Virus record (IMG/VR): IMGVR_UViG_3300033142_000581
Coordinates: 1-34,889 of that record
Direction: 5' to 3' (one strand)
Source of the DNA: a virus
Length of the DNA stretch: 34,889 nt
Part shown: positions 1 through 6,796 of the stretch, one piece after another
Layout of the letters: each line of letters starts with the position of its first letter
Numbering within the stretch: position 1 is the stretch's first letter
The notes under the pieces: model-generated
Seen by the model: only the letters and a program-made list of their open reading frames with translations
What the model was told of the DNA's origin: nothing
Database searches by the model: none
Translations under genes and position numbers: made by a program

Positions 1-282
1 GCGATGTTTAAACGCTATCTCTTCAGCTTCCTCTCGTTGGTCTGGGTGTACACATACATACCTAATAATCATAAAAGGATTAGATGAATTACTCCAAACA
101 CAACGGTATCTTATCTTTGCTTTTCTGAGTTTCTTGCAGAACTCTTTGATTTCTGTGATTCCAGTGTCAGCCCATTGCTCTGTAATGTTACAGCCTCCAA
201 CAGCATTGACTGGCTCCAACCAAGAACGCCACCCGTCCAGACGGAATATCTTGGATTTAGTAGTATTAATATGCGCTGACAT
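1..282 (-). CDS. Hypothetical protein, C-terminus beyond the left edge
   Basis: Leftward gene open from an ATG at 282-280 to the edge of the window (94 codons visible). It overlaps the end of the upstream gene by 17 bases, which suggests translational coupling. The product starts MSAHINTTKSK and contains a mixed stretch with Trp, Cys and several basic residues (ITEIKEFCKKLRKAKIRY). No signal peptide, membrane segment or catalytic motif is visible. One GTTTAAAC copy (6-13) is read here as Ala-Phe-Lys-His. Family not recognised; it is accepted as a gene from its open frame and its place in a tightly packed array. Confidence 0.6.
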   Translation of the reverse strand, partial: MSAHINTTKSKIFRLDGWRSWLEPVNAVGGCNITEQWADTGITEIKEFCKKLRKAKIRYRCVWSNSSNPFMIIRYVCVHPDQREEAEEIAFKHR

Positions 283-589
283 TTCTCATTTGATTTTGTT
301 GGTAACTTGCTGAAGCCCACTCATCATCATCATAATAACTATTTGTCATGTTGTGATAGTACATCTTCAACTGTACGCTCAGTGCGTTTAAACACTCTAT
401 CTCTTTGTAGTCAACAACTGTGCAGTCACTACATACTTTGCCAAGCATACCGCCACCAAGATAGTTTTGATATGCTGTCATTTTGTGGTGAGGATATCCC
501 CAATCGTCAAGGCGTATCTCAACACCCCCGCCACGCGGTGAGACCTCTTGTCTTACCACCGCGTTCGCTATTTTCTCAGCACTACTCAT
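266..589 (-). CDS. Hypothetical protein, 107 residues
   Basis: Leftward gene starting inside the last codons of the gene at 582-830 (8-base overlap) and overlapping the next gene downstream. The N-terminal half is Gly-rich (residues about 16-50, with RGGGVEIRLDDWG and NYLGGGMLGK); the C-terminal half is rich in Tyr, Asn and Asp. It has four Cys but no clear zinc-binding spacing. A GTTTAAAC copy at 386-393 is read as Cys-Leu-Asn inside YKEIECLNALS. Not recognised. The overlaps on both sides argue for a real gene in a compact operon. Confidence 0.6.
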   Translation of the reverse strand: MSSAEKIANAVVRQEVSPRGGGVEIRLDDWGYPHHKMTAYQNYLGGGMLGKVCSDCTVVDYKEIECLNALSVQLKMYYHNMTNSYYDDDEWASASYQQNQMRNVSAY

Positions 590-830
590 GGTCTACCTCA
601 TCGTTTAAACAAAGCAATACATCTCCTACTACAATACGCCCCGCAATATCAGAAGCTTTAGGATTAATGTCTCTGTCTTTTAAAAGACCTTCTTCATCTA
701 CATACATAAATGAATGAGCATCTACTGGACAATACTCTATGTATCCTCCAACATGATTTTGAATTTTCTTTAAAGACGATATGTCAACATCTCTGACAAT
801 TTTCCCGTCTGTCTTAATTAAATCTGCCAT
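582..830 (-). CDS. Hypothetical protein, 82 residues
   Basis: Small leftward gene with an A/T-rich Bacteroidota-type leader (TTTAATTTAATTTATATG). The product is acidic: MADLIKTDGKIVRDVDIS, then a segment IQNHVGGYIEYCPVDAHSF and a C-terminal tail ending CLNDEVDHE. A GTTTAAAC copy (603-610) encodes the Cys-Leu-Asn near the C-terminus. No motif recognised. It is the first protein gene after the structured RNA and tRNA-like elements at 893-1058, and a further GTTTAAAC copy (857-864) lies just upstream of its start. Confidence 0.6.
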   Translation of the reverse strand: MADLIKTDGKIVRDVDISSLKKIQNHVGGYIEYCPVDAHSFMYVDEEGLLKDRDINPKASDIAGRIVVGDVLLCLNDEVDHE

Positions 831-892
831 ATAAATTAAATTAAATTATGCGTACTGTTTAAACAGGGTTTCCGCTTTCCCTTTATATTATC

Positions 893-961
893 GAGCAGAG
901 ATTTGTATTATGACAGTCGTCACTGCCTGTTCCTCCGTGGGTTCTTGTAACCTCTCTGCTC
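893..961 (-). ncRNA. Candidate structured RNA, three-way junction
   Basis: Seen directly: a perfect 9-bp closing stem (893-901 with 953-961, GAGCAGAGA/TCTCTGCTC on the transcript strand) encloses two hairpins. One is GGTT-loop-AACC (940-943 with 949-952). The other is GGCAGT-GACG-ACTGTC (912-917 with 922-927, one G-U pair). The single-stranded joiner between them is purine-rich (CACGGAGGAACA). Drawn as leftward RNA it starts four bases after the tRNA-like element and precedes the gene at 582-830. The shape is riboswitch-like or that of a small ncRNA, but I recognise no known class. Strand is inferred from flanking genes. Confidence 0.5.
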
Positions 962-965
962 TTTG

Positions 966-1058
966 AAGACGGGCGCGGATTCGAACCGCTAATTAATAAC
1001 CTAAGGTCTTGTGTCAAATTTTCAAAACCACTTCCCCGCACCATGCGATGACCCGTCT
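966..1058 (-). tRNA. tRNA-like element, identity unclear
   Basis: On the minus strand the ends pair perfectly as a 7-bp acceptor stem (AGACGGG at 1058-1052 with CCCGTCT at 973-967). Next to it is a canonical T arm: GCGG, loop TTCGAAT, CCGC. The interval is 93 bases, as in tRNAs with a long variable arm, and CCA is not encoded. The middle contains TTTGAAA, which resembles a Ser(UGA) anticodon loop, but its flanks do not form a good 5-bp stem and the D arm is poor. It may be a degenerate or divergent tRNA, or a tRNA-like structure with another role. GTTTAAAC (1060-1067) lies one base from its 5' end. Confidence 0.45.
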
Positions 1059-1072
1059 TGTTTAAACGCTCT

Positions 1073-1297
1073 CTATAATCTTTCCAGAAAGTCGTCCACC
1101 AACATAAATGGTGTTATCTCATCAAGTCCATTGACTTCTATAAAATCTTTAGCGCATCTATGTACATGGTCGCGAAACTCTTTGTCTGACTTCCACCATT
1201 TAGAGCCTACAATTACGCCACCGTGATTGAAGAACATATCGCTAATAGATAATCTCTCTCTGTTTAATAACTCCGTGATTGATAATAATTTTTCCAT
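1073..1297 (-). CDS. Hypothetical protein, 74 residues
   Basis: Leftward gene starting at an ATG 24 bases from a good promoter -7 box (1321-1328), with leader TTTAAAACTTATATATATG. The product is MEKLLSITELLNRERLSISD, then a Gly/Trp stretch (HGGVIVGSKWWKSDKEF) and an acidic C-terminus ending VDDFLERL. It looks like a small soluble alpha/beta protein. No family recognised. It is the last protein gene before the tRNA-like element, so its promoter probably also drives the RNA elements at 893-1058. Confidence 0.6.
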   Translation of the reverse strand: MEKLLSITELLNRERLSISDMFFNHGGVIVGSKWWKSDKEFRDHVHRCAKDFIEVNGLDEITPFMLVDDFLERL

Positions 1298-1320
1298 ATA
1301 TATAAGTTTTAAATTCTGTA

Positions 1321-1351
1321 CAAGTATACAACTTTTTTATAAACTGTGCAA
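1321..1351 (-). promoter_or_regulatory. Bacteroidota-type promoter, leftward
   Basis: On the minus strand TTG (1351-1349) is followed after 20 bases by TATACTTG (1328-1321). This matches the TTTG-N19/20-TAnnTTTG promoter of Bacteroidota with one mismatch in the -7 box. It lies 24 bases before the ATG of the gene at 1073-1297. TGTACAA and TTGTACA occur in inverted orientation around it (1318-1324 and 1355-1361), a possible operator. Confidence 0.5.
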
Positions 1352-1397
1352 GTTTTGTACATTAAAATTAATTTTAATTTGCTCACCTTGTTTAAAC

Positions 1398-1431
1398 GCA
1401 CTGGGCTTTTTGTCCGCGATTGACCCAGTGC
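1398..1431 (-). other. Intergenic hairpin next to GTTTAAAC
   Basis: A perfect 8-bp stem, GCACTGGG (1398-1405) with CCCAGTGC (1424-1431), closes an 18-base loop containing a further GTC/GAC pairing. It lies between two leftward genes and directly abuts GTTTAAAC at 1390-1397. No T run follows on the minus strand, so it is not an ordinary intrinsic terminator. It could be a processing or regulatory element of the early transcript. Confidence 0.45.
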
Positions 1432-1456
1432 ATTATTTGTCTTTCTTTTCTGTGCA

Positions 1457-1660
1457 TTAGTCTCGTCTTACTGTATAGTCTTCATTCACTAAGCTGAAAA
1501 CCTCTTGATAATATTCTTGAGGAACTTCAGCTTCTTTCATCTGTTCGTGAATCTCTTCGAATAAAGCGTCTACTACACTGCTGAGCGAACAACTGTCAAC
1601 TTGATTATACCAATATGATACTTGTTCGAATCTTTCTTCTGCTGTTAATGTGTTTTCCAT
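1457..1660 (-). CDS. Hypothetical acidic protein, 67 residues
   Basis: Small leftward gene with leader AATTTAAAATTTATATT before the ATG. The product is acidic and mostly helical in appearance: MENTLTAEERFEQVSYWYNQ, then VVDALFEEIHEQMKEAEVPQ and a C-terminus ending YTVRRD. No membrane segment and no recognised motif. It follows the gene at 1687-1908 and precedes the hairpin at 1398-1431. Small acidic early proteins are common in phage takeover regions, but nothing here shows a specific role. Confidence 0.6.
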   Translation of the reverse strand: MENTLTAEERFEQVSYWYNQVDSCSLSSVVDALFEEIHEQMKEAEVPQEYYQEVFSLVNEDYTVRRD

Positions 1661-1686
1661 AATATAAATTTTAAATTAGACTTTGT

Positions 1687-1908
1687 TTAAACGTCGTCTA
1701 CCTCATCTGAGTTAGACAATATACTCTCCGCAATTTCAAGTGAAATAAACTCCAGAACTTCATAATAAATATAGTCACCGCCTTGGTGCATTTGTAATCC
1801 TGATTTATCTGCAACATTTTCAATGTGCGAAACTAATCTGCTTATCAACGTATAATCTCCGTCAATAGCGTCATAGATTTTTTTGGCTATCTTTCTTTCT
1901 ATACTCAT
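1687..1908 (-). CDS. Hypothetical protein, 73 residues
   Basis: Leftward gene whose ATG lies two bases after the stop codon of the gene at 1911-2135, so translation is probably coupled. GTTTAAAC copies mark both ends: 1909-1916 touches its start codon, and 1685-1692 supplies its last codon and stop (GTT TAA). The product (MSIERKIAKKIYDAIDGDYT, ending SNSDEVDDV) is helical in appearance with an acidic tail. No family recognised. Confidence 0.6.
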   Translation of the reverse strand: MSIERKIAKKIYDAIDGDYTLISRLVSHIENVADKSGLQMHQGGDYIYYEVLEFISLEIAESILSNSDEVDDV

Positions 1909-1910
1909 GT

Positions 1911-2135
1911 TTAAACGTCCTCCATTTTTTCATCATGTTTGTCCCACTTTTCGATAGCCTCTTCAATCTCGTCTTTCATGTCGACAATTCTTTCACACGC
2001 GTCCAGTAATATCTCTAATCCTTCGCGCTCGTAATTGCTCATGTCTACACTCATTTCGCCGTTCTCAATTGCCTCTGCACAATCTATTACATCGCCAGAG
2101 GTATTTTCAAATCGACAGTAACTTAAATTTCCCAT
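1911..2135 (-). CDS. Small phage protein with N-terminal YCRFENT motif
   Basis: The product begins MGNLSYCRFENTSGDVIDC. I recall this N-terminal signature (xxSYCRFENTxxDLxDC) from many small, uncharacterised phage and prophage proteins. The rest is acidic and helical (ILLDACERIVDMKDEIEEAI). The function of the family is unknown to me. The gene has a typical leader (TTTAAAAATAAAACTATG), follows a structured intergenic element, and ends in GTT TAA from the GTTTAAAC copy at 1909-1916, two bases before the next start codon. Confidence 0.7.
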   Translation of the reverse strand: MGNLSYCRFENTSGDVIDCAEAIENGEMSVDMSNYEREGLEILLDACERIVDMKDEIEEAIEKWDKHDEKMEDV

Positions 2136-2162
2136 AGTTTTATTTTTAAAGTTAATAACTCC

Positions 2163-2227
2163 TGCACCGCGTTTAAACGGTGCAACGCTTTGAGCTTATC
2201 GTTCTTTTTATAGTCGCTCAAACGACT
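2163..2227 (-). promoter_or_regulatory. Structured element A: pseudoknot-like plus GTTTAAAC hairpin
   Basis: On the leftward transcript: AGTCG-TTTGAG-CGACT forms a hairpin (2227-2212), and its loop plus the next base (TTTGAGC, complementary to GCTCAAA at 2195-2189) can pair 16 bases downstream, as in an H-type pseudoknot. Then comes a 7-bp hairpin TGCACCG/CGGTGCA (2184-2163) whose loop carries GTTTAAAC. The same arrangement with different but still paired bases occurs at 3067-3129. It lies between the gene at 2227-2481 and the leader of the gene at 1911-2135. Function unknown; a role in RNA processing or translation control is inferred. Confidence 0.55.
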
Positions 2228-2481
2228 TAATAGATATCTTCTATTTCGTGAAACTCTATCACCCATGACCCGTAACCTTGAAACTTTACGCACGGTTTAC
2301 CTTCATGCGTTACGTCTACAATTTTACGCTTGACGTTTGACCCTCTCCCGTAAAATGACCACCAGTTAAAATGGATAGTTTTCCCGATTTCTATTTTGTC
2401 TTTGAATTCTGAAATGCCTTCGGCTTCTGCCTTAGAATTTCTTTTCTTGTCCAGTATTTTATCAACTATTAAACTTCTCAT
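2227..2481 (-). CDS. Hypothetical protein, 84 residues
   Basis: Leftward gene joined to the upstream gene by an ATGA overlap (2478-2481), a sign of coupled translation. The N-terminus is charged (MRSLIVDKILDKKRNSKAEA). The C-terminal two thirds look like a small beta domain: IGKTIHFNWWSFYGRGSN, VKRKIVDVTHEGKPCVKF, GYGSWVIEFHEIED. This resembles small SH3-like or barrel folds, but I recognise no family. Its stop codon overlaps the first base pair of structured element A. Confidence 0.6.
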   Translation of the reverse strand: MRSLIVDKILDKKRNSKAEAEGISEFKDKIEIGKTIHFNWWSFYGRGSNVKRKIVDVTHEGKPCVKFQGYGSWVIEFHEIEDIY

Positions 2482-3041
2482 ATTGTTTGAATTTTATTTA
2501 ATCTTTCTAATTTCTCCGCGTCGTTTAAACAGTCCCAATCCTTTGGCTTTTGCCAGTTTGGAATTTTGTTTCTCATCGTCGCAAATACAATCTTTTCTTT
2601 ATACTTCACCGCGTCCGCTGTGTCGTCTTTCTTACTCATCAAATCCCCTAACATTAGAAAAGCTTTCATTGAATTCAAGACTGGGTCTGGCTCTTGCTCC
2701 TTGTTGTTAATCTTGTCCAGTAAATCCAAAAGGTCAATCCCAAAGTACCCGCCAAACTCACGGCTTTTGAAATACTCGCGAAGCTCTTTCTTTCTGGTGT
2801 CGTTTAAACGCTTCCAGTCAGGAAATACAACGCGATGAACTTGGTTCATATTATATTGAATCATATCTTCAACTACCTTCCTCATTGAGGTTTGAAACTG
2901 GTAGTCTTCCCATGTTCTATTATAATAATGTACAGACGTTTTATTGATTTGCACACCGTTAAAATACAGTGTTGAATCATGGCTGAATCCTCCGCGTCTG
3001 CTACGGCTTGAATTCTTGATTTCAAATTTTTTAAATCTCAT
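2478..3041 (-). CDS. Hypothetical protein, 187 residues
   Basis: One of the two longest genes of the leftward array, with leader TTAAAAATTAAATTATG after structured element B. The product is basic and charged (MRFKKFEIKNSSRSRRGGFS) with Trp/Tyr-rich strands (NRTWEDYQFQTSMRK), a helical middle and a Lys-rich C-terminus (WQKPKDWDCLNDAEKLERLN). Two GTTTAAAC copies fall in its coding sequence, read as Cys-Leu-Asn (2523-2530) and Arg-Leu-Asn (2802-2809). No catalytic motif or known family is apparent. Confidence 0.65.
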   Translation of the reverse strand: MRFKKFEIKNSSRSRRGGFSHDSTLYFNGVQINKTSVHYYNRTWEDYQFQTSMRKVVEDMIQYNMNQVHRVVFPDWKRLNDTRKKELREYFKSREFGGYFGIDLLDLLDKINNKEQEPDPVLNSMKAFLMLGDLMSKKDDTADAVKYKEKIVFATMRNKIPNWQKPKDWDCLNDAEKLERLNKIQTI

Positions 3042-3066
3042 AATTTAATTTTTAAGTTATACAACC

Positions 3067-3129
3067 CGCACTGTTTAAACAGTGCGACGCTTTGGGCTTA
3101 ATGTGCTGTTTTAAGTCGCCCAAACGACT
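3067..3129 (-). promoter_or_regulatory. Structured element B: second copy, overlapping a small gene
   Basis: Second copy of the arrangement at 2163-2227. On the leftward strand AGTCG-TTTGGG-CGACT (3129-3114) is followed, after the same 16-base spacer, by GCCCAAA (3097-3091), complementary to the loop. The 20-base perfect palindrome CGCACTGTTTAAACAGTGCG (3086-3067) follows. Relative to copy A the 7-bp pairing changed from GAGC/GCTC to GGGC/GCCC, and the terminal stem changed entirely while staying paired. Here the first hairpin lies inside the coding sequence at 3098-3226, whereas in copy A it is non-coding. Confidence 0.55.
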
Positions 3130-3226
3130 CCAGACCTTTCACAAATTGTCTCCACTCTTTGCGCGTTTGCTTTGCGCGTCTTCGCGCTTTGCTTTGTCTG
3201 TTTGGTTTATTGATTTTAAATATCAT
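3098..3226 (-). CDS. Small basic protein, 42 residues
   Basis: Short leftward ORF with a leader like its neighbours (CAAAAATCAAATCAAATG). The product is very basic: MIFKINKPNRQSKARRRAKQ, then TRKEWRQFVKGLESFGRLKT and AH. About a third of the residues are Lys or Arg, which would fit nucleic-acid binding, but no family is recognised. The last 30 bases lie in structured element B, so the codons for ESFGRLK also form the hairpin. The good leader and correct spacing support it as a gene despite its size. Confidence 0.5.
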   Translation of the reverse strand: MIFKINKPNRQSKARRRAKQTRKEWRQFVKGLESFGRLKTAH

Positions 3227-3251
3227 TTGATTTGATTTTTGGTTATACAAT

Positions 3252-3273
3252 AGACAGCGTTTAAACGTTGTCT
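3252..3273 (-). other. GTTTAAAC hairpin over a stop codon
   Basis: AGACAGCG-TTTAAA-CGTTGTCT forms an 8-bp stem with one G-U pair and a TTTAAA loop, centred on GTTTAAAC (3259-3266). The stop codon of the gene at 3261-3479 (GTT TAA) lies inside it. The stem sequence is unrelated to those of the other GTTTAAAC hairpins. Confidence 0.45.
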
Positions 3274-3479
3274 CTCTTAAATGCGTCCTTCACTATGTCA
3301 AGGCATAACGTACCGCCCATATAAAACAGGAAGCCGATAAATAAAGCGCAAGGCATGAACGCGATTAAATTGGTTAGGCTTTTGATATCCGTGGCTAAAA
3401 TGTGAACTAATAAGCGCACACAAGAGACCGCGACAAATCCGAAGCATAACGACACTAAAATTGAATTTACTTTTTTCAT
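3261..3479 (-). CDS. Small membrane protein, two predicted helices
   Basis: Leftward gene; the start chosen is the ATG at 3479-3477 because its leader (AAATAAATCAAATTATG) matches the neighbours, although the frame is open further upstream. The 72-residue product has a short basic N-terminus (MKKVNS), a hydrophobic helix at about residues 7-28 (ILVSLCFGFVAVSCVRLLVH), a second at about 37-60 (LIAFMPCALFIGFLFYMGG) and a charged tail (KDAFKRDNV). An inner-membrane location is likely. Superinfection exclusion or host membrane modification would fit an early phage membrane protein, but this is inference. Confidence 0.6.
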   Translation of the reverse strand: MKKVNSILVSLCFGFVAVSCVRLLVHILATDIKSLTNLIAFMPCALFIGFLFYMGGTLCLDIVKDAFKRDNV

Positions 3480-3548
3480 AATTTGATTTATTTGGTTACT
3501 GTTTCGTACTTTTGTACTCATCAGGCAAGGCACACACCTTGCGACAGT

Positions 3549-3568
3549 GGGGCGCGTTTAAACGCCCC
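3549..3568 (-). other. GC-rich GTTTAAAC hairpin after the SprT-like gene
   Basis: GGGGCG-CGTTTAAA-CGCCCC forms a perfect 6-bp GC stem with the palindrome in the loop (GTTTAAAC at 3556-3563). It lies eight bases downstream of the stop codon of the gene at 3576-4193. No T run follows, so intrinsic termination is not supported; transcript stabilisation, processing or protein binding are alternatives. Confidence 0.45.
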
Positions 3569-3575
3569 GCATTCA

Positions 3576-4193
3576 CTACCATTCAAGGTCGCCACCGCAA
3601 CCCGTCGGACAATCAAACTCGTTTATCATGTTGAGGTTTTTCCTCGACGTTCTAAAACTGAAGTCACAACAGTTACAAGAAACTTTTATATTTCTGGTGG
3701 TCTGTGTACGTCCGCCCGTTCTAAGCTGTTGGTGAGGGAATAAACCGAGCTTCTTAACAATCTTCTCAGTCATTAAATTTTGTAGCCATTCGCTTTCTCC
3801 TGTGCTTCTCATTTGTCCAGTCAAACCGACAGCTGTTGCGCACTGTTTAAACGCTTGACCGTGTCCACTTTCGCAATTGTCAACCGCATGGACTAACTCA
3901 TGAACTAACACCCCTAAAATTCGTAATGAACCTTCTAACGTTGACCCGCTTAATGCTGGCGTTATAATTACATGATTTATCCCGTCGTCGCTTAATTGTG
4001 TCGGGTAACATTGACCCAATACAGAAACGCCCAGTTTATTTTTGTTTGTCTTATTACCACGGCTTGCCCATGATACAGATAGTTTTACCGTTGGGACTTT
4101 GTATCCCTTAGGACTAAAAAGAGATTTACGCAAGATTTTTGTTGCCTCTTGCAAGTATGTTTCCCTGTTTAGTTTTGAAGTTTTAAATTTCAT
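3576..4193 (-). CDS. SprT-like zinc metalloprotease
   Basis: The 205-residue product has the zincin signature HELVH at residues 98-102 (LVHELVHAVDN), followed by GHGQAFKQCA with the likely third ligand His111. A C-terminal Cys-rich segment (from about residue 173: SCNCCDFSF, then DCPTGCGGDLEW) looks like a zinc ribbon. HExxH, then GHGxxF and a zinc ribbon are characteristic of SprT/Spartan-like proteases, some of which cut DNA-bound proteins. The target here is unknown. It is the first gene of the leftward array, with a -7 box about 30 bases upstream of its start. GTTTAAAC at 3845-3852 is read as Ala-Phe-Lys-Gln. Confidence 0.8.
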   Translation of the reverse strand: MKFKTSKLNRETYLQEATKILRKSLFSPKGYKVPTVKLSVSWASRGNKTNKNKLGVSVLGQCYPTQLSDDGINHVIITPALSGSTLEGSLRILGVLVHELVHAVDNCESGHGQAFKQCATAVGLTGQMRSTGESEWLQNLMTEKIVKKLGLFPHQQLRTGGRTQTTRNIKVSCNCCDFSFRTSRKNLNMINEFDCPTGCGGDLEW

Positions 4194-4221
4194 AATGTAT
4201 ATATTTAGTTATTAATATGTA

Positions 4222-4229
4222 CAAAGATA
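4222..4229 (-). promoter_or_regulatory. Leftward promoter -7 box
   Basis: TATCTTTG on the minus strand matches the Bacteroidota -7 consensus TAnnTTTG and lies 29 bases before the ATG of the SprT-like gene. No convincing TTTG -33 box is seen at the expected distance, so the promoter is weak or activator-dependent. It would be the head promoter of the leftward array. Confidence 0.4.
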
Positions 4230-4386
4230 GTATAATTATTGTATAATCCTAATTAATTTTATACTGATTTTAAAAATATATTTTCTTGCACCTTGTCCCA
4301 TGCTTGTAACTGGCTGATAGTCAGAGCGTTATCCTGTTAATAACTTTATCTTTTTTTAGTAGATTTATTTTGTCTTTTGATTTATC

Positions 4387-4450
4387 GCGGGGGGATAAAG
4401 AGGGAATTCCTTTTGTCTCTTTACTTGCAAAACGTCAGACCTTCCCCCGC
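4387..4450. repeat. Large inverted repeat in the divergent control region
   Basis: GCGGGGG (4387-4393) pairs with CCCCCGC (4444-4450). Nested inside, TAAAGAG (4396-4402) pairs with CTCTTTA (4417-4423), around the small palindrome GGAATTCC. The structure could be a DNA cruciform, an origin element or a leader RNA. It lies ten bases from the GTTTAAAC cluster. The rest of the gene-free stretch 4194-4701 holds the leftward -7 box, the cluster, and a G/C-run hairpin (GGGGG 4616-4620 with CCCCC 4652-4656, enclosing GGGT-ATT-ACCC). Confidence 0.5.
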
Positions 4451-4459
4451 CTTAACGTT

Positions 4460-4533
4460 GTTTAAACACCCTGAACCCCACACCGTTTAAACATTCCCGA
4501 CCCCGCAACGTTTAAACATGACGGCGTTTAAAC
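4460..4533. promoter_or_regulatory. Cluster of four GTTTAAAC palindromes
   Basis: Exact copies start at 4460, 4485, 4510 and 4526, spaced 25, 25 and 16 bases, between the leftward array and the rightward genes. The sequence between them is C-rich and not conserved. Clustered palindromes in a divergent intergenic region are typical of an operator or a replication or partition site. The cluster lies about 230 bases upstream of the leftward -7 box at 4222-4229. No binding protein is identified. Confidence 0.6.
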
Positions 4534-4701
4534 AGCCTCAGGAAAAAGCTAAAAAAATCGACAAAAATTTTTTGAAATTGATTTGACTTGCGAAAAAAAA
4601 ATCACTTTCGGTACGGGGGGTGGCAATCGTATTATGGGGTATTACCCTCAACCCCCAGATATCTAATAAAAATTTATTATCTTTACAAAAATTATATAGC
4701 T

Positions 4702-4899
4702 ATGAGCAAAAACAATTACGTTGACGGACTATACATTAAAGACGGTAGGTTAATAAACGAAAGACCTGACGGAGAATCTGGTATTGCCAGAGCAGCTGCA
4801 ATCAAAAGAGCTGTAACCAACGATAGAAAAATAAATCGAATTGCTGAAGGAATCCAACTTGCAGAAGACAAGAAGAACTTCAGACAATTAGAATTTTAA
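4702..4899 (+). CDS. Hypothetical protein, 65 residues
   Basis: First rightward gene. The start at 4702 is chosen over upstream in-frame codons because its leader is A/T-rich (AAAAATTATATAGCTATG) and the upstream frame runs through G/C-rich control DNA. The product (MSKNNYVDGLYIKDGRLINE, ending DKKNFRQLEF) is small and charged, with a basic helix-like middle (ARAAAIKRAVTNDRKINRIA). A DNA-binding role would fit its position between control elements but is not shown. It is followed by a good intrinsic terminator, so it is probably transcribed alone. TATCTTTA at 4678-4685 could be its -7 box. Confidence 0.55.
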   Translation: MSKNNYVDGLYIKDGRLINERPDGESGIARAAAIKRAVTNDRKINRIAEGIQLAEDKKNFRQLEF

Positions 4900-5191: not shown

Positions 5192-6796
5192 ATGAGTAAG
5201 CAAGGATATATACCAAAGAACCTTCACTTCAATTCTGAAGGCAGAGAAAAGTTAATGTCGGGAATCGAAAAGATTTCCCAAGCAGTTAAATCTACATTAG
5301 GCCCACGCGGTAAAACTGTTATCATAGAAACTACCGACCATTTAAGAGGGATGACTATCACCAAAGACGGCGTGACGGTCGCCCGTAGTATTTTTCTGGA
5401 TGACCCTGTAGAGAATATAGCAATTCAAATAATGAAAGACGCATCCAATCGCACAGCGAACTCTGCTGGTGATGGAACAACTACAGCTATTGTATTAGCA
5501 GAAGCTTTTGTAAAAGCAGGTAGTAAGTATTTAATTCCGTCTAACAATACCACACAAGTGGTTAGACATATAAATACAATTGTAAAAGATGTTGTAAAAG
5601 ATTTAGAAAAGAATTCTAAAAAGATTACCAATAGTAGTTTGTTAGATGTCGCTAAGATATCTGCAAACAATGATGCGGAGATTGGAAAATTAATTTTCGA
5701 TGCGTATCAGAAAGTTGGTAAAGACGGTATTGTAACTGTTGAGCGTTCTCAAAACCATGAGACTTATGCTGAGGTTACAAACGGAATCAAAGTAGATAGA
5801 GGCTATTCATCTAATCTATTTATAAATAATCAAAAGAAGGATGAGTGTGTATTAGAGAATGTACGGGTTCTGGTATGTGACCAAGACATTAATAACATAC
5901 TTCAAATAGAAACTGTGTTGAAACCCATCATTCAAAAAAATGAAACCTTGCTTATCATTGCCGATTGCGGTACGAATGTAGTAAACACACTTGCAGCTAA
6001 TGTTGTAAGAAACGGATTGAAGTTGTGTAATATACCGACTCCTTCATTTGGTTATAAGAAGCATGAGCTTATGCAAGACATAGCTCTAACATTAGGAGCT
6101 AAGTATCTATCAGAAAAAACTGGAGATGATTTATCTACATTATCCGAGCATGACTTAGGAAGAGCTGATAAAATTATTGTAGGTAAATCCAATTCTGTTC
6201 TTATTACTAATCAAGAACCAGATGAAGAACTGAAAATGAGAATAGCTGAATTAAGAATTCAAAAAGAAAATACCGAGACACCACAAGAAAGAAAGTTTGT
6301 TGATGAAAGAATCGCAAGCTTAGCAGGTGCCATCGGGTGTATCTACGTTGGTGGTAACTCAGATGTAGAGCAAAAAGAAAAATTTGACCGAGTCGATGAC
6401 TCGGTATGTGCTGTTCGTTCAGCTTTAGAAGAAGGTATTGTACCTGGTGCAGGTCTTGCTTTATATAATGCTTCTAAAAAAATATCAAGTGATAATGACG
6501 ATAATGATTATAATACTGCATGTAATATAGTAAGAGAAGCTATAGTACAACCACTAATTCAAATATTAGAGAACGCAGGTATTAAACCAGAAAATGTTTT
6601 AAAAGAAATAAATGAGAGTTCTAAAAAGAACTATGGGTTTGATGTTAAGAATGAAAAGTTTGGAGATTTATTTAAACTTGGAGTTATTGACCCACTTAAA
6701 GTAACTAAGAACGCACTGATTAATTCAAGCAGTGTAGCATCTACTATATTATCTACTAACGCAATCGTTACCCATGCCAGAATCAATCAAGACTAA
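5192..6796 (+). CDS. groEL: Chaperonin GroEL (60 kDa), phage-encoded
   Basis: The 534-residue product aligns by eye with GroEL along its length: LGPRGK at 36-41, ITKDGVTVA at 56-64, the ATP-site GDGTTTA at 93-99, and ALEEGIVPGAGLAL at 411-424. Asp439 is in the position of the catalytic aspartate. It would form a ring that folds proteins with GroES in an ATP cycle. It lacks the usual Gly-Gly-Met C-terminal tail. It heads an operon with two small ORFs and GroES, under a consensus promoter. A phage copy probably serves folding of its own large virion proteins; this is inferred from other chaperonin-encoding phages. Confidence 0.95.
   Translation: MSKQGYIPKNLHFNSEGREKLMSGIEKISQAVKSTLGPRGKTVIIETTDHLRGMTITKDGVTVARSIFLDDPVENIAIQIMKDASNRTANSAGDGTTTAIVLAEAFVKAGSKYLIPSNNTTQVVRHINTIVKDVVKDLEKNSKKITNSSLLDVAKISANNDAEIGKLIFDAYQKVGKDGIVTVERSQNHETYAEVTNGIKVDRGYSSNLFINNQKKDECVLENVRVLVCDQDINNILQIETVLKPIIQKNETLLIIADCGTNVVNTLAANVVRNGLKLCNIPTPSFGYKKHELMQDIALTLGAKYLSEKTGDDLSTLSEHDLGRADKIIVGKSNSVLITNQEPDEELKMRIAELRIQKENTETPQERKFVDERIASLAGAIGCIYVGGNSDVEQKEKFDRVDDSVCAVRSALEEGIVPGAGLALYNASKKISSDNDDNDYNTACNIVREAIVQPLIQILENAGIKPENVLKEINESSKKNYGFDVKNEKFGDLFKLGVIDPLKVTKNALINSSSVASTILSTNAIVTHARINQD

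Follow-up and report, generated by a model that had tools for sequence, protein, structure and literature searches.

A control-region cluster of exact DNA sites that may belong to a phage SprT-like metalloprotease

ImmA/IrrE-type proteases cleave repressors. For SprT proteins, we know of no sequence-specific site. Passages of PMC5127644 describe SPRTN as a DNA-dependent protease and crosslink repair as the biology of SprT. A mycobacteriophage SprT-like gene was toxic in a screen, in which the cells filamented (a passage of PMC7474061), and the authors of a jumbo-phage study suggest that SprT-like proteases target host proteins (a passage of PMC7824862). A different kind of system is found in Cluster A mycobacteriophages, where the stoperators of the L5 and Bxb1 repressors consist of one short word in many copies across the genome. 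According to passages of PMC6550527, some of these copies lie at the early promoter and most are not promoter-linked. From phage to phage, the stoperator words change together with the protein (passages of PMC6550527 and the abstract of PMC9283540).

Here, we describe a cluster of four exact sites beside an SprT-like gene of a phage. The cluster is best read as the local part of a widespread and apparently undescribed site-and-protein system, rather than as an isolated origin or operator. To our knowledge, no described system combines an exact word spread over a whole genome with a gene for a metalloprotease. Among the literature matches listed, no title, abstract or passage linked SprT to the words GTTTAAAC or GTGTAAAC; this covers the available passages of PMC8758107, PMC5313236, PMC5454422, PMC9837993 and PMC11806900, as well as those of PMC7474061 and PMC7824862.

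The control region and the spread of sites

The window, that is, the whole stretch of DNA analysed, comprises 34,889 bases of a virus record classed as linear. Its terminase, portal and head proteins match PHROGs phage families. Searches with the terminase and head protein gave nearest named relatives at 46–72% identity, namely Flavobacterium elemo phages, Cellulophaga phages, Maribacter phage Panino and Manatee Spring podovirus. These are podophages, all flavobacterial apart from the podovirus from spring water, so the phage probably infects a flavobacterium or a related bacterium. It may be crAss-like.

The window contains 29 copies of GTTTAAAC, against a mean of 1.40 and a largest count of 4 in 100 dinucleotide shuffles. 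Four exact copies lie at 4460–4467, 4485–4492, 4510–4517 and 4526–4533. A preliminary description of this DNA had reported four palindromes at spacings of 25, 25 and 16 as the densest group of the motif, and both statements hold for the window. It had also placed them in a gene-free stretch between divergent units. Indeed, the gap extends from the minus-strand start at 4193 to the plus-strand start at 4702, and no convincing gene was found between these two starts. Homologous genes flank the same gap in three close relatives (G029, G050 and G059). When the gaps are aligned, the sites at 4460, 4485 and 4526 are present in all four sequences at spacings of 25 and 41 bp, while the intervening bases differ. 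The third site (4510) is found in the window only and is missing at this place in all three relatives. The preliminary description would have abandoned its reading had relatives shown no conservation; three of the four sites are kept in three relatives.

On its right side, the gap is bounded by a small rightward gene (4702–4899, plus strand), an open frame; in four relatives, a homologue with 69–88% identity lies next to sprT. Upstream of the rightward gene, a second block, GGGGGGTGG...ACCCTCAACCCCC (4614–4660, plus strand), is highly conserved in four relatives; its fold is no better than that of shuffles (z −0.93). The phage also encodes a GroEL chaperonin close to the control region (5192–6796, plus strand; phrog_5725, E 1e-135), the product of which is 92% identical in G029 and G050.

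A further 15 sites occur in the minus-strand early arm (6–3852), at about one per 274 bp. Over this left 3.9 kb the sites are evenly spaced, with a mean of 274 bp and a CV of 0.20 versus 0.94 for random placement, and none of 20,000 random sets equalled this evenness. Eleven of the 15 lie 1–104 bp upstream of a hand-called gene start, and the sites at 2802 and 3845 lie inside the two longest genes of the arm, so that the even spacing is maintained. The same arm has a T-arm-like GGTTCGAATCC (974–988, minus strand) where no clear gene is evident; ARAGORN called no tRNA there, and the tRNA scan returned none.

The remaining 10 sites are scattered over the right part of the window (7447–34375), with its mostly rightward, late genes. 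Selection on these late-gene sites was considered and gave a mixed picture, as the word in the terminase gene is kept in only half of the loci with an identical terminase peptide (5 of 10 and 14 of 28). As a side observation, the G046 terminase (L152:10221–13016) has an intein-like insertion (Intein_splicing E 3e-4, PT-HINT E 0.003).

The −7 promoter consensus of Bacteroidota is TAnnTTTG. A promoter-like TATCTTTG for the minus-strand unit lies at 4222–4229 (minus strand). It is the sole −7-type match on the minus strand of positions 1–4750, and it has no upstream TTG at the usual spacing. We set aside the idea that each early gene has its own promoter, given this single match to the Bacteroidota consensus. 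A phage polymerase with a different promoter may serve the early genes.

The inverted repeat with a nested stem that had been noted beside the cluster is present at 4382–4455. Its outer arms (4382–4393 and 4444–4455) are 12 nt long and 83% paired, and its nested arms (4396–4402 and 4417–4423) pair at 7 of 7 positions. The fold is slightly better than that of shuffles (z −1.48; 18 of 200 equally good), and three relatives retain most of the inner GGGGGAA/TTCCCCC arms. Among the four sequences, double compensatory changes are absent from all 10 consensus pairs, and one pair is broken in one sequence. On these two grounds, the missing compensatory changes and the fold score, the hairpin reading of 4387–4450 was rejected. 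The inverted repeat is conserved DNA, with a structure that is only putative.

GC skew had been put forward as a check for an origin. The skew switches sign at the control-region gap, but gene orientation reverses there too, which makes the two inseparable. An origin with iteron-like repeats is a quite improbable reading of the cluster. Arrays spaced at 24–26 bp also occur in L114 and L126, and the cumulative skew minimum lies at the array in G050; however, in G029 and G014 it lies at the start of the records, which are not rotated, and most sites lie outside arrays, either roughly once per early gene or distributed along the genome.

Association of the site with sprT

The SprT-like metalloprotease gene (3576–4193, minus strand) adjoins the control-region gap and encodes 205 aa with HELVH, His111 as the third ligand and a C-terminal Cys-rich ribbon. 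Five SprT-bearing records (the window, G014, G029, G050 and G059) have 0.24–0.88 GTTTAAAC sites per kb. Fifteen terminase relatives of at least 20 kb without SprT total 509 kb and contain 20 sites, none exceeding three sites or 0.125 per kb. Among the 16 terminase relatives with contigs of at least 20 kb, SprT was found in G014 alone, and G014 has 15 sites; the other 15 are fragments, and some may have SprT beyond their ends. The three close relatives G029, G050 and G059, which were found through the motif, all have SprT and contain 46, 42 and 22 sites. Four named relatives, with 0, 2, 0 and 1 sites in 60–77 kb, gave no SprT match in a search without a positive control of its own; in another search, the same query matched 4 of 19 records.

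A motif-first scan of viral contigs for two GTTTAAAC copies 25 bp apart yielded 52 stretches, and the site-rich contigs differ widely in G+C (0.31–0.60). In an all-versus-all comparison of 20 motif-selected or related contigs from 10 groups, SprT was the sole protein cluster found in seven groups. The next widest clusters, terminases, reached four of the 10 groups, and no repressor, nuclease or primase family common to the motif-bearing groups was found in this set. Three short contigs with sites (L106, L089 and L117) have no member of the SprT cluster. Of the 52 motif-pair contigs, 12 encode SprT according to a profile search. As a separate observation, a GTTTAAAC trio with spacings of ~936 and 25 bp recurs in the isolate contigs L102, L131, L132 and L134. 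The trio is probably one conserved gene, and the loci of these four contigs gave no SprT match.

The protein-first scan of viral_contigs used an SprT alignment (A1) of 12 proteins, all from motif-bearing phages, ignored DNA words and gave 80 loci; the retrieval pattern demanded HEL[VIC]H. GTTTAAAC was enriched at p<1e-4 in 41 of the 80 loci. Pooled over these loci, several of which are near copies and two of which (L163 and L164) had already been found by the motif, 398 copies were seen versus 13.2 expected (30x), and the next of the 256 palindromes reached 3.5x. Control loci around the window's terminase, also 80 in number, had 46 copies versus 28.7 expected (1.6x), with none at p<1e-4. Some of the counts are not independent, because the seed proteins came from motif-bearing phages and G029, G050 and G059 were found by the motif. 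A small set of nine loci from bacterial genomes had 8 copies versus ~0.9 expected.

These counts make chance, codon usage or restriction-site effects a very improbable source of the sites. GTTTAAAC is presumably the PmeI word, and the retention of the terminase-gene site in just half of the same-peptide loci would suit such effects as well, but none of the 100 shuffles approached 29 copies, and an enrichment of 30x in 80 SprT loci compares with 1.6x in the controls.

The position of the word relative to sprT is also informative. GTTTAAAC occurs at most 150 bp upstream of the sprT start in 21 of the 80 loci, and the distance is 16–20 bp in phages ECO1230-10, Alexa, Persinger and Arya, and 73 bp in Pan1. 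The presence of the word shortly upstream of the sprT start in many loci points to autoregulation. In ECO1230-10 (L244), Alexa (L247), Persinger (L252) and Arya (L253), an SSB gene is followed by sprT, and the word lies a short distance upstream of sprT. Families other than SprT within 6 kb reach at most 15 of 98 loci.

The preliminary description regarded the cluster as the natural place for a regulator or replication protein to nucleate. With good support from the sequence comparisons, we infer that a regulator would nucleate at the cluster, because its sites are conserved despite diverged spacers, because unrelated phages share their association with the adjacent SprT-like gene, and because the same site lies directly upstream of sprT in other phages. 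The origin part obtained no positive support.

The word and its one-base variant

The site is exact. In nine genomes, GTTTAAAC was seen 251 times versus 11.7 expected (21x), and its single-base variants reached at most 1.55x. C or T precedes the word in 88% of 838 flanks from 49 loci.

The SprT-like family occurs in 163 of 50,697 phage records, where it is annotated as 'SprT-like protease', 'transcription elongation protein', 'antirestriction protein' or hypothetical. Twelve of the 163 were examined as named phages. Whole-record counts of GTTTAAAC were 17 in R5C, 16 in Pan1, 8 in Alexa, 7 in Arya, 5 in ECO1230-10, 4 in Persinger, 1 in LazerLemon, and zero in Eden, CN1, Epa5, Yang and Zeta1847. 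The variant GTGTAAAC, counted in eight of the 12, occurs 40 times in LazerLemon, 22 times in Zeta1847, 20 times in Yang and once in CN1, and is absent from Eden, Epa5, R5C and Pan1. A reversed control word is absent from all eight genomes, which are G+C rich (0.61–0.71 in the stretches measured), so such words are expected to be almost absent. Judged by these counts, GTGTAAAC is the one-base variant used by actinobacterial phages.

This switch is also seen in the wider set of 92 SprT loci (the 80 loci and the 12 named phages, several of them near copies). At least three GTTTAAAC copies are present in 51 loci, with 400 seen versus 12.8 expected, and GTGTAAAC is mildly raised there (46 versus 16). 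The other 41 loci have 106 copies of GTGTAAAC versus 4.7 expected, 41 of which come from L214 and L218, near copies of one region; here GTTTAAAC was seen 34 times versus 3.0 expected, and other single-base variants reached at most 1.6x. A tree of 90 SprT proteins comprises 50 of the GTTTAAAC type, 10 of the GTGTAAAC type and 30 of neither. Site type changes 17 times on this tree versus 33.7 times when shuffled, and none of 200 shuffles was as low, although near copies add to the clustering. This clustering suggests that specificity follows the protein. The 'neither' set includes a few clades without any site, and also short AT-rich loci that have between one and three sites apiece. Three of the 12 named SprT phages (Eden, CN1 and Epa5) were scored as neither type, and no convincing other word was found in the SprT loci without either word. 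That 30 of the 90 proteins have neither site type weakens our main reading.

The flanks of GTGTAAAC resemble those of GTTTAAAC: among 93 sites, 93% have C or T before the word and 92% have A or G after it. Unlike the palindromic GTTTAAAC, GTGTAAAC lacks symmetry, and 11 loci contained no copy of the fully symmetric GTGTACAC, which is a poor fit to a simple symmetric dimer. In 10 loci, with genes called by our own gene caller, GTGTAAAC had the same orientation as the genes in 32 cases and the opposite in 39. An asymmetric variant that occurs in both orientations indicates a site that works as DNA, and a function at the RNA level was ruled out on the same counts. The sites are spread more evenly than expected by chance in LazerLemon (P 0.0001), Yang (P 0.0001), Pan1 (P 0.003) and R5C (P 0.03), where the even spread runs through structural genes too. 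In Zeta1847 they are not significantly more even than chance (P 0.16).

Exactness and spread might alternatively be explained if the site were a target of nicking, priming or covalent protein attachment, with SprT removing leftover DNA-protein crosslinks, as SPRTN does. The exact core resembles the recognition word of an enzyme more closely than it does a tolerant operator, the sites are genome-wide and, Zeta1847 excepted, even in the phages just named, and crosslink repair is the biology described for SprT (passages of PMC5127644). Yet we consider this explanation unlikely. It predicts neither a site 16–100 bp upstream of sprT nor clusters in control regions, and a nuclease or primase family common to the groups was not found.

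The SprT-like protein and its possible role at the sites

The window protein matches the Pfam SprT-like family (PF10263) at E 2.4e-4 and 21.3 bits, below the gathering score of 25.6, while 50 of 59 aligned SprT members match PF10263 at E<=0.01. HExxH and the third His are present in 64 of 65 aligned members, the window protein included, in a set whose retrieval pattern itself demanded HEL[VIC]H. The predicted structure of the window protein has a pLDDT of 93.3. Its best Foldseek match is 6mdw (E 1.4e-3, prob 0.99), and its best VIA-align Z is 7.9, middling on its own, with an rmsd of 3.2 over 102 residues. Human SPRTN is the best solved structural match, and the model agrees with an SprT fold. 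Searches of NCBIfam with five SprT proteins and of a defence-protein library with four window proteins gave no match.

One SprT-like protein, at L126:1774–2343, has lost its active site, with SQLAH in place of HELxH and the third His gone. This contig, which was found through the motif, is still site-rich (19 sites in 10.5 kb, including an array of six at 24–26 bp spacing). This argues against a purely proteolytic role, and suggests that the function of the site can outlive proteolysis.

On balance, we read the four sites as the control-region cluster of an exact site family, with consensus Y-GTTTAAAC-R, that would belong to the SprT-like metalloprotease; we regard this reading as somewhat probable. 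It is based on the protein-first and motif-first searches, on presence and absence in one lineage, and on the exactness of the word. The SprT-like protein itself probably binds the word, although a partner protein too small or too diverged for BLAST may be the binder. If the link to sprT holds, the cluster probably controls the leftward unit and sprT.

A different phage or host protein might instead bind the sites, with the SprT-like protease acting on that binder, for example by cleaving a repressor. This seems doubtful to us, even though both fold and motif mark SprT as a protease (HExxH and the third His are kept by 64 of 65 aligned members, in the set whose retrieval demanded HEL[VIC]H), the palindrome resembles an ordinary dimer site, and a CI-like repressor gene lies near sprT in Enterobacter phage Arya. 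No other family is common to the groups, the next reaching 4 of 10 groups, or 15 of 98 loci within 6 kb. Moreover, the hosts span several phyla, so a host binder would need near universality, and site type tracks the SprT tree.

Under our reading of an SprT-linked site family, the SprT-like protein, or an undetected partner, would bind Y-GT(T/G)TAAAC-R. The cluster between the divergent units would serve as an operator through which the SprT-like protein regulates the leftward unit that encodes it, and loading of the protein along the phage DNA would take place at the evenly spread sites. Once loaded, it might block transcription, as stoperators do; the leftward unit, where sites are dense and regularly placed and a single promoter is visible, points in this direction. 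Alternatively, it might act as a DNA-dependent protease that removes bound proteins on phage DNA. This option is suggested by the even genome-wide spread, late genes included, by the kept active site and by the DNA-dependent relative. In its fullest form, which we offer tentatively, phage SprT-like proteins would be the first sequence-specific DNA-binding metalloproteases, loaded in each phage lineage by one exact word present in dozens of copies along its own genome, clearing silencers, stalled polymerases or defence proteins, and repressing their own gene via the upstream cluster.

If our reading is true, the family of SprT-like phage proteases acquires a DNA site as its partner and a role that can be tested, and the one-base switch between GTTTAAAC and GTGTAAAC offers a ready specificity test using isolated phages. 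If a separate partner or repressor binds instead, the same counts lead to that binder, and to a variant protease-repressor circuit.

In comparison with known systems, the locus resembles ImmA/IrrE in that a metalloprotease of a mobile element lies beside a palindromic control site, but ImmA/IrrE proteases come with their repressors, whereas the phage sprT has no conserved repressor gene next to it. The window protein shares its fold and active-site motif with SPRTN and SprT-like proteases and would, like them, be DNA-associated. The phage members differ from these proteases, for which no specific site is known to us, by their linked exact DNA site. Like the stoperators, the words are present in many genome-wide copies in the window and in named phages, most of them away from promoters as judged by the promoter consensus known to us, and the words differ between phages in step with a protein, here the SprT-like one. 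Unlike the stoperators, which are tied to an HTH immunity repressor and are asymmetric and mostly in one orientation, the sites described here are linked to a metalloprotease gene, have an exact core and are unoriented (32 same, 39 opposite).
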